Assembly: GCA_009835985.1 (NCBI GenBank)
Contig: VXWI01000036.1
Span: forward strand, 107,470-171,469
DNA length: 64,000 nt
DNA from: Acidobacteriota bacterium
Lineage (GTDB): Bacteria; Acidobacteriota; Vicinamibacteria; Marinacidobacterales; Marinacidobacteraceae
Direction of reading: 5' to 3'
In this document: one piece after another, positions 23,497 to 32,618 of the stretch
Position numbering within the stretch: position 1 is the first letter of the stretch
Layout of the letters: each line of letters starts with the position of its first letter
Position numbers and translations under genes: made by a program
Notes under the pieces: model-generated
Told to the model about the DNA's origin: nothing
The model's input: only the letters and a program-made list of their open reading frames with translations
The model's database searches: none

Positions 23497-24213
23497 TTGA
23501 CCTGCACGGCTCCGTCCCGCCGCCTCTCGGTGTTCACCCGGGTACCCGAGCCCGGCAGGGCCAAGACCCGCCTCGTCCCCCCGCTCACCGCGGACCAGGC
23601 GGCCGCACTGCAGCGCGCCATGACGGAGGACCTGCTGGAGCGGCTGGATCGCACCTTCGGCGCCGCAGCCGCGGAAGCCCCGCCGCTCTCACTGGAAGTC
23701 CGATGCGACGGGCGGTTCTCGCCCGGAGCCCTGGAGGTCCCGAAGAGCTGGGCTACCACCAGCCAGGGCTCCGGGGACCTGGGCGAGCGGCTCGCGCGGG
23801 CCACCCGGGGGGCGCGGCGGGACGGAATCGGACGCCTCGTCATCATCGGCTCCGACGCTCCCCTGCTCCCGCTACCGCTGGTAGGGGCAGCGTTTTCCGG
23901 CCTGGCAGACCGGGACGCGCTCGTCGCCCCCGCGGAGGACGGCGGCTACGTCCTGATCGGCCTCGCCCTCGAGCGGGTGCCGCCGGCGGCGGTCGACTCC
24001 CTGTTCGCTGGCATTCCGTGGGGCACCGGTGCCGTCCGGGAGGCCACCGCCGAAGCTGCCCGGCGCGCCGGCCTCGGGTTCGGCGAACTGGCAGGCCATT
24101 GGGACGTGGATCGGCCCGAAGATCTACCCCGCCTCGCGGCCTCCATCCGCGCCCTGGACGCGGCAGCACGCCCCCGCCGCACGGGAGGAGTCCTCACCGC
24201 ACTGGGATTCTGA
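23497..24213 (+). CDS. TIGR04282/DUF2064 family transferase
   Basis: A GT-A-like nucleotidyl/glycosyltransferase-fold protein of 238 residues. Characteristic pieces: RLSVFTRVPEPGRAKTRLVPPLT near the N-terminus, QGSGDLGERLARATR, VIIGSDAPLLPLPLVGAA, DALVAPAEDGGYVLIGL, FAGIPWGTGAVREAT and WDVDRPEDLPRL. Relatives are often annotated as glycosyltransferase A, but the substrate is unestablished. The start is TTG 23497, inferred from where the conserved N-terminus begins. Its 3' end overlaps the convergent HipA-like gene by 20 bases. Confidence 0.8.
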   Translation: MTCTAPSRRLSVFTRVPEPGRAKTRLVPPLTADQAAALQRAMTEDLLERLDRTFGAAAAEAPPLSLEVRCDGRFSPGALEVPKSWATTSQGSGDLGERLARATRGARRDGIGRLVIIGSDAPLLPLPLVGAAFSGLADRDALVAPAEDGGYVLIGLALERVPPAAVDSLFAGIPWGTGAVREATAEAARRAGLGFGELAGHWDVDRPEDLPRLAASIRALDAAARPRRTGGVLTALGF

Positions 24214-25429
24214 GCGCCCGTCGAGCCTCCTCGTTCTCGAACGCGGGTTCATAGGACCGGATCTCCTCCTCGCTGAGGCCGGCGGCGGCGAGGCTCCCGC
24301 GCCATTCGCGCCGAATCGTGGCGGCCATGCCGGCCGCTGTTGCCGCCGCCTGGTCGAGCCGCACTTCGAAGAAAGGCGCGGCTTCGAGCGCCGCCTCAAG
24401 CGAAGCCTCGTTGCCGCTGAGTTCGCTGATCCCGGTTTCGAGGTGGCGATGACGGTGGGGTTCGGGGTTCACGTCGAACGCCGGCGCGAGAACGAAACGG
24501 CCAGCTCCAGCATGCAGCAGGCCGTGGTTCTTCAGGTGATCGTCGCCATTCGCCACGAGAATGGTGAACAGAATGCGGCGATAGAGCTCGGTGAGCTGCT
24601 GGAGCGGTTCGGCGGCGTGGACGCGAAGGGCATCGGCAATGTCCGTGTAGAAGGCGACGGCCCCGGGCTCGAGGTCGAGGAAGGACAGTGCCGACAGGTA
24701 GTGGACCCGGTCCGCGCTTGTGCGATCGAATCGCCGGATCAGGGCAACTGGAAGTTCGGATTCCGGAAGGGCGATCCGTGCGCTCGCCGCATCGATGCCG
24801 ACGCTCCGGGCAAGCTCGAGCGTCGCAACCTCGACTCGCTCGATCGGCCGGGTGTCCTGCCGGGCGGTGAACTTCGCGACGAGGAGCCAGTCGTCGTCAT
24901 CCCGCAGGCTGGCCTTGGGACGCGCACCGCCGAGGGAACCGGCGCTCCGCACCAGCGCGCGTCGATCAGGGCCGCTCAACTCGTGAGCGTCAGCCAACCG
25001 CCGCAGCTCCGAAAGAGCTTTCAGGGGAAACGTTGCTTCGGGAGGAGCGAGTGGAGAGCCTTCTTCGTCGAGGTAGCGAAGGGAACCCTGCCGGGTCTCA
25101 TCGTTCACGGCGAGGAGGTAGTCGAACTCGGAAAGTGCCCCGGCGAACACCCGCCGGATGAGCCCTCGTCCCCAGGCATCGGGGGCGCCGTCCCTGAAGA
25201 CTCCCGAAAGCGCCGACCGGCGATCGGTCCCCGACCCGGATGCGAAGAACCGTCCTTCGGAAAGTGGGAGTCCCGGCGCGATGGCGAAGCCCGCCGGATC
25301 CGTCAGCCATCCCGGCGAGTAGCGGAACATGCTCGTTTCCCGACGGCCGTCCGACTCGAACGTGAGCTCGCCGACGTCACGGAGCGCCGCGCCGAGCGCT
25401 ACCCGGACGGTACGCGTGGTCTTGGGCAT
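24194..25429 (-). CDS. hipA: HipA-family Ser/Thr kinase (toxin-type)
   Basis: A 411-residue HipA-like kinase. In the classic HipBA module, HipA phosphorylates glutamyl-tRNA synthetase (or another target) and stalls growth. Key parts: RDGAPDAWGRGLIRR, the phosphate loop SLGGARPK (165-172), ATP-binding Lys187 in LVAKF, catalytic Asp300 with Asn305 in NGDDHLKNHG, and metal-binding Asp323 in APAFDVNP. All appear intact. ATG 25429 has the RBS AGGAGG 6 bases before it, and the 185-bp element ends exactly against that RBS. The upstream HipB-like gene is on the same strand. Whether it is toxic here is inference. Confidence 0.85.
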   Translation of the reverse strand: MPKTTRTVRVALGAALRDVGELTFESDGRRETSMFRYSPGWLTDPAGFAIAPGLPLSEGRFFASGSGTDRRSALSGVFRDGAPDAWGRGLIRRVFAGALSEFDYLLAVNDETRQGSLRYLDEEGSPLAPPEATFPLKALSELRRLADAHELSGPDRRALVRSAGSLGGARPKASLRDDDDWLLVAKFTARQDTRPIERVEVATLELARSVGIDAASARIALPESELPVALIRRFDRTSADRVHYLSALSFLDLEPGAVAFYTDIADALRVHAAEPLQQLTELYRRILFTILVANGDDHLKNHGLLHAGAGRFVLAPAFDVNPEPHRHRHLETGISELSGNEASLEAALEAAPFFEVRLDQAAATAAGMAATIRREWRGSLAAAGLSEEEIRSYEPAFENEEARRALRIPVR

Positions 25430-25439
25430 CGGCGCCTCC

Positions 25440-25624
25440 TAGCAGCCTGTGGTGGAACTGGCGTGAGCACCGAGAACGGCGAGGCGCCCGGCTGACGAGG
25501 CGCGTGAGGGAGGAATACCGGGTGTATTCCGACCGAAACGCAACGATGAGGGCCGCCTAGCGGCCCGGTTCAGCCGGGATGCATCGCCGTTCGAATGCCG
25601 CGAGAGTTTCACCACAGGCTGCTA
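25440..25624. mobile_element. 185-bp structured MITE-like element, copy 2 (between hipB-like and hipA-like genes)
   Basis: Ends TAGCAGCCTGTGG (25440-25452) and CCACAGGCTGCTA (25612-25624) are perfect 13-bp inverted repeats. Same length as copy 1 at 14222-14406, with the same stems: GAACGGCGA paired with TCGCCGTTC, GGAATAC with GTATTCC, and GGGCCGC with GCGGCCC. The two hairpin loops differ (CGGGT for CGGGC, CTA for AAC). On the minus strand its first three bases are the TAG stop of the HTH gene, and its last base abuts the AGGAGG of hipA. Removing it with one TA would leave a stop codon 9 bases before the hipA ATG, a normal tight operon junction. Confidence 0.82.
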
Positions 25625-25939
25625 GCCCCCGAGCGGTCCCGGGCGGCGGATGCGCTGCGGGAGGGCTGATATGTCGAGCAGGAGCCCGGTGTCGTCCCGG
25701 GAGACGTCAAGCAGCTCGTCGAGACGACGCAGCTCCCCGAGCACCAGCAGCGCCATGGCGAATGCCCCCAGCGAAACGCCTGGCTCGCCCCTCTCCAGCC
25801 GGCCGAGGGTGCCGAGTGAAACACCCATTCGCTCCGCGAAGTCCGCCATGGGCATCCGGCGTTTCTTGCGCGCGATCCGCAGATCCCGACCCAGAGAGCG
25901 CAGCGCGCGCGTCGCCGAAGGTGTCAGTGGTTTGGACAT
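25622..25939 (-). CDS. hipB: XRE-type helix-turn-helix repressor (HipB-like antitoxin)
   Basis: A 105-residue DNA-binding protein with an XRE HTH at about residues 17-72: LGRDLRIARKKRRMPMADFAERMGVSLGTLGRLERGEPGVSL. In HipBA modules this subunit represses the operon and neutralises HipA. The short Pro/Gly-rich tail ends at the TAG supplied by the inserted element. The ATG at 25939 lies inside an AT-rich palindrome (25938-25963), which points to autoregulation. The insertion separates it from hipA by 192 bases, so the usual tight coupling of antitoxin and toxin is broken at the DNA level. Confidence 0.85.
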   Translation of the reverse strand: MSKPLTPSATRALRSLGRDLRIARKKRRMPMADFAERMGVSLGTLGRLERGEPGVSLGAFAMALLVLGELRRLDELLDVSRDDTGLLLDISALPQRIRRPGPLGG

Positions 25940-28997: not shown

Positions 28998-29199
28998 GCG
29001 GATTCTCCGGACGGGTGGGGCCGGGTAGCGTATGGGAAGGTCCATCCGCGCTCTCCCGCCTTGGCAACATCACCACGGTGCGATGGTGCTGATGGGGCTT
29101 GGGCCGACGGGGCCGCCATCGTTCCAAGCTGAGCGGCCCCAGATCGACTGATCGGTTCACCACCCAGTGGGTGCGGCAGGAGGCGGCGCGCGTGGCGGT

Positions 29200-29997
29200 T
29201 CAGGATTGCCGTTGGGCCAAGAAGCCGCAAAGAGCCCCTGCGACGGCCACGACCAACTCGGCCTCCGTGGGATCGACAACCTGTTGTTCGCGGATGTGAC
29301 GACCGCGATCGGAGGCATAGCCCCAGAGTTTGTGGACGGCTTGGTCGAGTGGTGGGGGTAGGTCGAGCAACGACACCAGCTTGCCCAAAGTGAGATTGGG
29401 TCGACCGGCGACCTCTCGAGCGGTGCCTTCGAGTGCTCCCATGGCGTGCTGTAGGGCCCCGGTGATGTCGGGCTCCGGACGACGCGAGATGTCTCGAAGC
29501 GCCTCTCGCATTTCCTTCGCTGCGCGCTGGAAGCCCGAGTCTTCCAACGAGTCAGGGACTTCGTGGGTGCTCCGTGCGAAGATCTCCGAGCCCCTGCGAG
29601 AGATCTGCCCGTCGCGGAGTTCCCAGCCGATACCGGTCTCCAGGAGGAAGTCGTTCAGGCGTCGTTCGAACTCCTGGGCAGGCCGGGAGTCCCACGGCTG
29701 CATGGCGGCGATTTCGGCGTGCAGCGCCTCGATGATGTCGTAGACCTTGTGCCAGCGAGCCCCATCGATCAGCCAGGCGACCTCCTCCGAGATGTTCGGA
29801 TACTCGGACCAGTTGGCGGGATCGGGCCTTACCAACAGGACTCTGCAGATCACGCGGCGCATGGCGGACGGCTTCAGTCCCGCCTCCTCCGCAATCAAAG
29901 GAACAGCGGCGCGCAGTCGGGATGGGGCGTCCTCACGGACGAGGATCTCCGCAGCGGGCGCGCGGTAGCCCTGGCGGTTCGAGAATCGTTGGATCAT
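29200..29997 (-). CDS. AbiJ-like abortive-infection protein with C-terminal HEPN domain
   Basis: A 265-residue protein resembling the AbiJ group of phage-defence proteins. N-terminal half (1-100) matches AbiJ_NTD-type sequence: FSNRQGY, ILVREDAPSRLRAAVPLIAEEAGLKPSAMRRVICRVL, PDPANWSEYPN, WHKVYDIIEAL. The C-terminal half is HEPN-like: ALQHAMGALEGTAREVAGRPNLTLGKLVSL, then LWGYASDRGRHIREQQVVDPTEAELVVAVAGALCGFL, where the Arg-His segment is the likely RNase site. ATG 29997 has RBS AAGGAGG at 30006-30012 and a near-consensus promoter (TTGACA-17-GATAAT) in the shared region with the divergent HTH-HEPN genes. Family assignment is from recall of the AbiJ pattern; the activity is inference. Confidence 0.7.
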   Translation of the reverse strand: MIQRFSNRQGYRAPAAEILVREDAPSRLRAAVPLIAEEAGLKPSAMRRVICRVLLVRPDPANWSEYPNISEEVAWLIDGARWHKVYDIIEALHAEIAAMQPWDSRPAQEFERRLNDFLLETGIGWELRDGQISRRGSEIFARSTHEVPDSLEDSGFQRAAKEMREALRDISRRPEPDITGALQHAMGALEGTAREVAGRPNLTLGKLVSLLDLPPPLDQAVHKLWGYASDRGRHIREQQVVDPTEAELVVAVAGALCGFLAQRQS

Positions 29998-30035
29998 GGT
30001 AAGGGCCTCCTTGGGCAGCTCCCTGAGGGTCTCGG

Positions 30036-30123
30036 ATTATCGGCTTTGAGACTGAGAGTGTCAAGAAGCACGTCAAGACGAGACAAGATTTCCTGGACAT
30101 TCATGAGCATCCTGCTTTATACT
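30036..30123. promoter_or_regulatory. Divergent promoters with heptamer repeats between the AbiJ-like gene and the HTH-HEPN operon
   Basis: Minus strand: TTGACA (30064-30059), 17-base spacer, GATAAT (30041-30036), leading to the AbiJ-like gene. Plus strand: TGGACA (30094-30099), 18-base spacer, TATACT (30118-30123), leading to the HTH gene. Between them stand GTCAAGA at 30060-30066 and 30072-30078 and GACAAGA at 30082-30088. The first heptamer overlaps the minus-strand -35 box. This is the most consensus-like sigma-70 region in the window and suits a shared repressor site. Confidence 0.65.
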
Positions 30124-30155
30124 CTGTTCTGATCAGCCAGGAGGAGGCCCGCGAG

Positions 30156-30536
30156 ATGCACGAAACGGCAGTGGATCGGGTGCGGCGACGCCGCAAACAA
30201 CTGAGCGAGGAGATTGCGAAACTGGAAGAGGAAAGGGGTCGGTTGGACGCGTTCCTGACCGTTCACGAAGAGTTCAGTCGCCCCACGATCCGGACGATCT
30301 CCGGAAGGGAAATCGACGCGCTGTGTCTGGTCGTGCTGCGGGATGTCGACAAGCCAATGACGCCCGCACAGCTTGTAGGCGAACTCAAGAAGCGCTTCGG
30401 CGCCGAAATCGAGGCGGCGAATCCCGCGAGGCTGGTGTCCACGCGCATGTCCACGCTCGCTTCGGTCCGGAGCACGGAACATGGTTGGCGGCTAGTACTG
30501 CCCAGCATCACACCCGAATCGGAGGCGTACGAATGA
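30156..30536 (+). CDS. Coiled-coil plus winged-helix protein (HARE-HTH-like), first gene of the HEPN pair
   Basis: A 126-residue protein. Residues 1-45 form a charged coiled coil (VRRRRKQLSEEIAKLEEERGRLDAFLTV). Residues about 50-115 look like a winged helix of the HARE-HTH/restriction-associated type: REIDALCLVVLRDVDKPMTPAQLVGELKKRFG, then ARLVSTRMSTLASVRSTEHGWRL. ATG 30156 has an excellent RBS (AGGAGGAGG at 30139-30147). The following HEPN gene overlaps its stop by ATGA. A repressor or antitoxin role towards the HEPN protein and the divergent AbiJ-like gene is plausible from layout. Base composition is clearly less GC-rich than the rest of the window. Confidence 0.65.
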   Translation: MHETAVDRVRRRRKQLSEEIAKLEEERGRLDAFLTVHEEFSRPTIRTISGREIDALCLVVLRDVDKPMTPAQLVGELKKRFGAEIEAANPARLVSTRMSTLASVRSTEHGWRLVLPSITPESEAYE

Positions 30537-31423
30537 CCATGAAGACGAGTTACCGGGAACCGCTTTACATCTGGACGTGGCTCAACACGGCGCTGAAGAA
30601 GGAATGGCAGAAGTACTCGGCGACCCCTGTAACGCCGGACTTGATACCAGGACACGAGGCGGCCCAGGGGTGGGGGTACGTCGTCGCGGGGTACTCCCTG
30701 ATTGAACAGGGACTCAAGGCGATTCTTCACCTGCGGGGCCAGAAAAAACCACCGAAGACGCATTCGCTTTCAGTCCTGTTTGCTGAGCTGGCAAACGAGG
30801 ACCAAGACGTGCTGAGGGCTTACTACAGCGACTTCCGCCAGACGTTTCCCGGGATGAAGTCATTTCCTCTGGCGACCCTCGAGGACTTTCTAGTGAACCT
30901 GGACGGTGGGCGGAACGATCAAGGCAAGTTCATCGGCTCGTTCGACTGGCGCTATTTCCCGACGGAAGAAGGAAGTGGTTCCCCAATGCCCCTCGTTAGC
31001 GTCAACGTCATGCATGAAGTCATGTACGGGTGCGTTCAGCTCATCCTGTCGATCGAAAGGGGAGACCGTCACGCCAGCACATCCACTTATGGCTGGCGGC
31101 TCCATCGAGAGAGATCCCGGCGCCATCGCGACTGGCTGACAGTCAGGATGAACTCGCCAGGATGGGGAGAGGAGGGCGACCGACTCGAGATCCTTGCGGG
31201 ACCGGACCCCAGCGGTCGGTCCGACTACATAGTGTTTGAAGGCGGCCAGATCCGGGTCTTCTTCGCACCCCTTCCGAAAGCTGAGGCCATCGCGCTCCCG
31301 ATAGTGGACAAACGGCCCGAACTGGACTCCTTTGACCCCGCCGCTGCCTTCCAGAGCATCGGTGTCACCATGGACCGAACGATGAGGGATCAGGAACCCG
31401 CGTCCCGCCACATCATGTACTAG
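30533..31423 (+). CDS. HEPN-domain protein of unknown function, second gene of the pair
   Basis: A 296-residue protein from ATG 30533 (overlapping the previous stop by ATGA; the longer open frame from 30323 runs antisense-like through the HTH gene and is rejected). Residues about 45-90, GYVVAGYSLIEQGLKAILHLRGQKKPPKTHSLSVLFAEL, have the helix-loop-THSL pattern of HEPN domains. The long C-terminal part (about 150-296) is strand-rich with basic patches (RLHRERSRRHRDW), and I do not recognise it. Low GC compared with neighbours suggests recent transfer. HEPN proteins paired with a small regulator are commonly RNase toxins or phage-defence effectors; that is inference here. Confidence 0.6.
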   Translation: MTMKTSYREPLYIWTWLNTALKKEWQKYSATPVTPDLIPGHEAAQGWGYVVAGYSLIEQGLKAILHLRGQKKPPKTHSLSVLFAELANEDQDVLRAYYSDFRQTFPGMKSFPLATLEDFLVNLDGGRNDQGKFIGSFDWRYFPTEEGSGSPMPLVSVNVMHEVMYGCVQLILSIERGDRHASTSTYGWRLHRERSRRHRDWLTVRMNSPGWGEEGDRLEILAGPDPSGRSDYIVFEGGQIRVFFAPLPKAEAIALPIVDKRPELDSFDPAAAFQSIGVTMDRTMRDQEPASRHIMY

Positions 31424-31616
31424 GGCTCCCGGCCAATCCGACCAATGCTGACAGGGCCCCAGGAGCCCGGGCGATAGGGCACCGACTCACGACCTCGTAG
31501 CGTTGCCGTGCGGGTCTGGATGGAGACCGGCGGTCCAAGCCGGTACGCCATCGGGACATACGGCTCGACGCGCCGCGGGCCTGCGGCCCGGGTGCCGGTC
31601 TGAAGACCAGCGCGCC
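31424..31616. other. Intergenic stretch between convergent genes
   Basis: This 193-base gap separates the HEPN gene from the sigma-54 activator, which converges on it. It contains GC-rich inverted repeats, for example GACCGGC...AAGCCGGT near 31527-31545 and GCCGCGGGCCTGCGGCCCGG near 31571-31590, that could serve as terminators for both sides. No gene or RNA recognised. The change back to high GC marks the right edge of the low-GC accessory segment. Confidence 0.4.
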
Positions 31617-32618
31617 CTACGGGATCCCGTGGCGGCGGAGCTTCTGCCAGAGGCTCTGGCGAGAGATGCCCAGCTCCCGGGCGGCGCGGACCCGGCTGCC
31701 GGCGGCGCGGCGCAGCGCCCGCAGCAGGACGAGTCGCTCGAAGGCCGCCCGGGCAAGCGCCAGCCTGCGGATCTCGATCACCGCGTGGAGCGGGTCCGGC
31801 GCCGCAGGGGCCGGACCGGACGTCTCCTCGGTGCGTCCGGCCACCATCTCGGGACCGATGACGCCGGTTCCCGCGCGCCGCATCAGGGCTTCGGCGAGGA
31901 CCGACTCCAGCTCGCGGACGTTCCCCGGCCAGTGGCGGCGGGCCAGCGACTCAAGGGCCTCCGCCGACAGCCGGGCGGGCGCGAGACGGTGCCGGCGGGC
32001 GAGCCTCGCCAGGAGGGTCGCCGCGAGTTCGGGAATCTCCGATCGCCGTTCCCGGAGCGGCGGCAGGCGGAGCCGGACGACCCGCAGCCGGTAGAAGAGG
32101 TCTCGACGGAACTCGCGCGCGGCGGCGAGCTCGGCGAGCGGACGGTGGGTCGCCGCGATCAGGCGGAAGTCGGATCGCCGCACCCGGATCTCTCCGACCC
32201 GGCGGAACTCCCTCTCCTGAAGCACGCGGAGCAGGGTCGCCTGCCCCTGCGGCGAAAGCTCCCCCACCTCGTCCAGGAACAGCGTGCCCCCGTCGGCGGC
32301 CTCCAGGAGTCCCGGGCGCGCCGCGTCCGCCCCCGTGAAAGCACCCCGGGCATGGCCGAAGAACTCCGCTTCCAGGAGCCCGTCCGGCAGCGCGCCGCAG
32401 TTCACCGCCACCAGCGGACGGTCCCGCCGCGGGCTCCGGCGATGCACGTAGCGGGCGAGCAGTTCCTTGCCCGAACCCGTCTCCCCTTCGATCAGCACCG
32501 GCACGTCGAAGCGGGCCACGCGCGCCGCTTCCTCGAGCAGCGACCGCATCGCCGCCGACGCGGCCACCAGGCCGGCCGCGAGACGTTTCGGTTCAGGCGC
32601 GTTCCCGGACGACCGCAC
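31617..32618 (-). CDS. Sigma-54-dependent transcriptional activator without a receiver domain (PspF-like)
   Basis: A 333-residue AAA+ activator of sigma-54 RNA polymerase. The protein starts almost directly in the AAA+ domain: Walker A GETGSGKE, then [11 protein letters not shown] with the intact sigma-54-contacting GAFTGA loop, Walker [21 protein letters not shown] and [10 protein letters not shown] Fis-type helix-turn-helix closes the protein ([22 protein letters not shown]). No receiver, GAF or PAS sensor domain is present, so control must come from a partner protein, as with PspF and PspA. GTG/ATG candidates place the start near 32618, overlapping pheT by 26 bases. Its targets are not evident; no -24/-12 promoter was seen nearby. 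Confidence 0.87.

Follow-up and report, generated by a model that had tools for sequence, protein, structure and literature searches.

An inserted AbiJ-NTD4 and HEPN-like gene locus of an Acidobacteriota bacterium, with relatives in two phyla

Closest described systems and layout of the locus

AbiE is a two-gene operon in which a winged-helix protein, AbiEi, is encoded first and a nucleotidyltransferase toxin, AbiEii, second. It belongs to the type IV toxin-antitoxin (TA) systems (PMC3985639). HEPN toxins are also established members of TA pairs, and proteins combining AbiJ-NTD4 with HEPN have been described, for which conservation of an Rx4-6H motif is reported (Anantharaman et al. 2013, PMC3710099). 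For HEPN-T and AbiV proteins, which lack the His of Rx4-6H, Anantharaman and co-workers proposed an alternative active site (PMC3710099).

Here we describe a locus within a 64-kb stretch of Acidobacteriota DNA (64,000 nucleotides, hereafter the window), the parts of which resemble known kinds of defence genes. The combination of an AbiJ gene, a small gene and a HEPN gene had no description or name in the literature searched, which is weak evidence of novelty given that most subscription papers lay outside its coverage. Like AbiE, the locus contains a two-gene operon in which a small putative winged-helix protein comes first; however, its effector is HEPN-like rather than a nucleotidyltransferase, no sequence relation was found to AbiE, and related loci can do without the small gene. 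An MNT-HEPN (HepT/MntA) TA system likewise has a HEPN protein within a two-gene operon, but no MNT gene was recognised beside the HEPN gene in the window or in its two closest relatives, L058 (a Gammaproteobacteria metagenome-assembled genome, MAG) and L059 (a Bryobacterales MAG). The features of the locus are as follows.

29041-31495: insertion of about 2.45 kb that contains the three genes and hardly anything more, with approximate edges at 29041-29055 (left) and 31496-31575 (right)
29200-29997, minus strand: AbiJ-NTD4 protein P0001, 265 aa; PF18863, PADLOC PDC-S32; homologues 43-73% identical
29998-30155: divergent regulatory region, 158 bp, with two divergent sigma-70-like promoters whose positions are kept in L058
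30036-30064, minus strand: AbiJ promoter, TTGACA-17-GATAAT (11/12); counterpart in L058, TTGACA-17-CATGAT
30060-30088, plus strand: heptamers GTCAAGA, GTCAAGA and GACAAGA
30094-30123, plus strand: promoter of the small gene-HEPN operon, TGGACA-18-TATACT (10/12); counterpart in L058, TTGACG-18-GATACT
30156-30536, plus strand: small protein P0002, 126 aa; 63% identical homologue in L059
30533-31423, plus strand: HEPN-T-like protein P0003, 296 aa; PF05168 below cut-off; homologues at 65, 61 and 45% identity

A sequence-only reading of this DNA had proposed three genes at these positions, namely those for an AbiJ-like protein, a small coiled-coil winged-helix protein and a HEPN protein, and the gene coordinates confirmed all three. 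They also confirmed the proposed coupling, since the small gene and the HEPN gene overlap in the sequence ATGA (30533-30536) and are translationally coupled. The near-consensus sigma-70 promoters claimed for both strands of the 158-base region were borne out as well, with two promoters observed against 0.1 expected in shuffles. The heptamers fared differently. GTCAAGA occurs twice in the divergent region together with a single one-mismatch copy (GACAAGA), yet some 7-mer is just as frequent in 178 of 1000 dinucleotide-shuffled versions of the region, which is chance level. Read on the opposite strand, the first copy is the AbiJ -35 box plus neighbouring bases, and copies 2 and 3 are absent from the homologous region of L058. 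On the shuffle test and this non-conservation, a heptamer operator was rejected. An Rfam search over the locus returned no match.

Insertion of the three-gene block

The three-gene block is an insertion, because empty sites are present in the genus and in the family. In two genomes of the same genus (G301 and G305) and in one of the same family (G297) both flanks are adjacent, with approximately 85, 33 and 167 bp, respectively, between the aligned ends, and another genome of the family (G298) agrees with an empty site. The insertion site lies between a sortilin-like gene and a gene for a sigma-54 regulator. The lower GC content that had been noted relative to the flanks was also verified: it is 61.1% in the insert versus 70.9% in the rest of the window, and the interval 30001-31000 is the lowest in GC among the 64 kilobases of the window. 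Nothing clear was found in the way of terminal repeats or a target duplication at the edges of the insert, and no phage DNA matched it.

The right edge of the insert adjoins a GC-rich, hairpin-forming dispersed repeat of REP-like type (31496-31618). Every genome of the genus has many partial copies of this repeat; the one analyzed here has about ten or more, and some are in tandem in relatives. In addition, a HipBA-like pair was detected on the minus strand at 24194-25939, 3.3 kb from the insert, with a HipA gene (PF07804, E=6e-39) and an HTH gene upstream. It is a separate presence/absence variant, being found in one genome of the genus (G301) and not in another (G305).

Proteins encoded by the locus

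The AbiJ protein matched PF18863 (AbiJ_NTD4) with E=1.1e-20 (75 bits, cut-off 34), and its homologue in L058 did so with E=4.4e-24. PADLOC profiles of the candidate defence system PDC-S32 spanned most of its length (PDLC04997, E=3e-22; PDLC04996, E=2.4e-18). It resembles AbiJ-type Abi proteins in an AbiJ_NTD4 domain above the curated cut-off, in near end-to-end homology to the PDC-S32 models, in a putatively HEPN-like C-terminus with an Ex3R motif, and in the plasmid and defence-type neighbourhoods of its relatives. The C-terminus appears to be a divergent Abi_C/HEPN-like region (PF14355, 12.4 bits, below the cut-off of 24), in which Ex3R (E190, R194) and RH (R233, H234) are conserved across homologues. 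It differs from AbiJ-type proteins in this sub-cut-off Abi_C score and in the adjacent RH found where AbiJ is reported to have Rx4-6H; that motif is absent, its position is held by S...RH, with R directly next to H in 15 of 16 homologues. A further difference from AbiJ-type proteins and PDC-S32 is the divergent coupling of this gene to a HEPN operon.

Relatives of the AbiJ protein on plasmids (38-57% identity) stand alone in varied settings, with HipBA, AbiEi/AbiEii, a ubiquitin-like cluster, an AAA/UvrD pair and other defence-type genes as neighbours. None of seven fetched plasmid AbiJ regions matched the small-protein or HEPN profiles. In a Methylocystis plasmid (L009:3169-9500), for example, the AbiJ-NTD4 homologue lies between AbiEi/AbiEii and a multiubiquitin/E2/ThiF cluster. 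The family is rare in the phylum (7 of 297 sampled genomes), and inspection by eye revealed no comparable operon alongside the other AbiJ homologues of the phylum (L099-L101 and L103).

The 296-aa protein matched the HEPN family PF05168 with E=0.0018 (18.9 bits, below the Pfam cut-off of 22), and its homologues scored 12-17 bits. Residues E58, K62, H77 and R140 are invariant in 10 full-length sequences; no full-length homologue found departs from the motifs E58-x3-K62, H77 and W139-R140-Y141, and the Ex3K, the alternative His and the R are invariant wherever the region is readable. This invariant motif set backs the HEPN assignment, which is weakened by the sub-cut-off score. Among described families, the protein is most like HEPN-T (PF05168) and AbiV, with Ex3K on helix 2, a conserved His in an insert after helix 2, a conserved Arg, and no His in Rx4-6H (PMC3710099). 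It differs from them in its sub-cut-off PF05168 score, in a WRY motif of its own, in a C-terminal region that is specific to the family and has no known relatives, and in lacking a nucleotidyltransferase (MNT) partner. Because the canonical Rx4-6H is missing from both the HEPN protein and AbiJ, RNase activity is uncertain. The structure model had a pLDDT of 45 and no PDB match below E=0.1; Foldseek searches with the poor models of the locus proteins gave no meaningful match, nor did PDB sequence searches give any.

Homologues of the HEPN protein share 65, 61 and 45% identity across nearly the whole length, or 25-29% over the HEPN core. They are likewise rare in the phylum (4 of 297 sampled genomes), and none was found on plasmids or in viral contigs. 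The phylum relatives at 25-29% identity are without the small gene and have defence-like surroundings; the islands of these distant relatives contain HsdM- and HsdS-like genes, a methyltransferase gene and a Vsr-like gene, as named by eye from sequence. One homologue, L022 (G222:C147), has an in-frame stop and is a probable decayed copy.

The 126-aa protein had no match above cut-off among family profiles. Its long N-terminal helix, a predicted coiled coil, is confidently modelled (residues 5-38, pLDDT about 74-90). A winged helix is hinted at by WH_GDS1 matches in two homologues (E=0.06-0.19) and is of low confidence in the model. Of the protein identities in the sequence-only reading, that of AbiJ thus stood (PF18863, E of about 1e-20), that of HEPN stood less firmly, with sub-cut-off PF05168 and the invariant motifs as backing, and that of the winged helix was weak. 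The protein is likely a DNA-binding autoregulator or sensor. No credible homologue of it was found in 347 genomes of the phylum, plasmids, phages or viral contigs; a weak match in the phylum (L030) was rejected since its frame makes no sense as protein.

Related loci and separable modules

Two close HEPN relatives, in L058 and L059, emerged from 84,980 scanned species genomes; with the window they make three close loci, all in draft assemblies. In L058, AbiJ (73% identity) and HEPN (65%) point away from each other, and each promoter has a counterpart at the matching position. The co-occurrence of AbiJ and HEPN in other genomes, and the sharing of the divergent region by a homologous locus, were thus found in another phylum. 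Directly upstream of the unit are a tRNA-Thr(ggt) gene, a full phage integrase and a C-terminal integrase fragment (L058:2414-4794), and the unit is probably carried on a tRNA-borne mobile island. Of the small gene, L058 retains a 53-codon open frame without roughly the first 30 residues and with most of the putative winged helix gone, next to full-length AbiJ and HEPN genes (in a draft assembly, where an assembly fault is possible in principle). In L059, the small gene (63%) overlaps HEPN (61%) in the same manner as in the window, and hsdM/hsdS genes of a type I restriction-modification (RM) system and an AAA gene occupy the place where AbiJ would stand; no AbiJ of this family was matched elsewhere in that genome. 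In two relatives of the L059 genome (L069 and L070), HEPN homologues at 45% identity were accompanied neither by AbiJ nor by a detectable small gene. On the minus strand at L069:3908-4804, 1-2 kb from the 45% homologue, another small putative winged-helix gene, unrelated to the first, precedes a HEPN gene (PF05168, E=5.8e-6). This hints that pairs of a small regulator and HEPN recur.

The genes are under purifying selection, with amino acids conserved and silent divergence high. Between the window and L058 or L059, HEPN has dN of 0.23-0.27 and dS of 1.4-1.8 (dN/dS about 0.13-0.2); the small gene has dN of 0.24 and dS of 0.97 between the window and L059 (dN/dS about 0.25); and AbiJ has dN of 0.17 with saturated dS between the window and L058. 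Because L058, L059 and the 45% relatives each miss parts, HEPN is the constant part, from which both AbiJ and the small gene can be separated.

These loci bear on how the three genes are related. Unrelated genes could simply have piled up in a defence hotspot without a functional link; the region does collect such genes, as the HipBA pair 3.3 kb away is a separate presence/absence variant, and AbiJ neighbours vary on plasmids. We regard this as improbable, since the divergent pair recurs with its two promoters in another phylum and a single insertion holds only these genes. At the other extreme, the locus might be one integrated system in which infection is sensed by the small protein, which would govern both promoters and thereby release AbiJ and HEPN together for joint action. 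The divergent layout and both promoters are kept in two phyla, all three genes arrived in a single insertion, and the rarity of both AbiJ and HEPN in the phylum makes their adjacency in two of the three close loci not casual. However, the small gene is decayed in L058 with both effectors intact, L059 has no AbiJ, plasmid AbiJ homologues stand alone, and the putative operator repeats are neither conserved nor significant. The same evidence, with the failure of the heptamer argument, leaves unsupported the earlier proposal that a single DNA-binding regulator governs two HEPN effectors, and we consider an integrated system rather unlikely. Equally doubtful is a composite system, in which AbiJ-NTD4 and a HEPN-T protein with a non-canonical site would be co-regulated from one divergent region as a 2.4-kb unit moving between phyla, giving a two-layered, RNA-targeting abortive infection. 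The survival of the divergent layout across phyla leaves room for a function shared by AbiJ and HEPN, which we likewise rate as rather unlikely.

Within the operon, the small gene and HEPN could form a TA pair like AbiEi/AbiEii, in which the winged-helix protein would be both the repressor of the operon and the antidote to a toxic HEPN. This is compatible with two modules, and an overlapping two-gene operon with the regulator first is kept in two loci (the window and L059); the second small putative wHTH and HEPN pair in L069 also favours it. Against it, a partner would be expected wherever the toxin is intact, yet the HEPN of L058 is full length and conserved beside a truncated small gene, no partner of the small-protein kind is detectable beside the 45% homologues in L069 and L070, and HEPN has no canonical RNase motif. 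An obligate antitoxin is disfavoured because it should not be lost first, and a TA pair is accordingly a tentative possibility, with a little more in its favour than an integrated system. The small protein appears useful where present but HEPN is kept without it, a pattern that fits an autoregulator or accessory sensor better than an obligate antitoxin. The pair can dispense with AbiJ too.

Our best reading is that the locus is not one system under an essential regulator. We favour, with somewhat better than even confidence, a horizontally acquired 2.4-kb defence cassette of two back-to-back modules. This is supported by the empty sites, by recurrence near an integrase in L058, by the position beside type I RM genes in L059, by purifying selection, by AbiJ relatives beside defence-type genes, by the defence-like islands of distant HEPN relatives and by the invariant HEPN motifs. 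Against it stand the missing Rx4-6H, the sub-cut-off HEPN and winged-helix assignments, the poor models and the small number of close loci. The first module would be a stand-alone AbiJ-NTD4 protein of PDC-S32 type, whose NTD4 may sense an infection-linked signal, upon which the HEPN-like C-terminus would attack RNA and cause abortive infection. The second would be the two-gene operon, with the small coiled-coil, probably winged-helix protein repressing its own promoter; this protein may also act as a signal sensor or keep hold of HEPN. The HEPN-T-like effector would use an alternative E58/K62/H77/R140 site to bind or cut RNA. The sequences themselves demonstrate the gene structure, the insertion, the conservation of AbiJ, HEPN and their promoters between phyla, purifying selection, the conserved motifs and the separability of the modules; the defence function, the RNase activity and the repression by the small protein are what we infer.

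The natural variants provide a dissection series: all three genes; AbiJ and HEPN with a dead regulator; regulator and HEPN without AbiJ; and HEPN only. In addition, a HEPN subfamily that lacks Rx4-6H yet carries a proposed alternative site allows the question of RNase activity to be tested directly.
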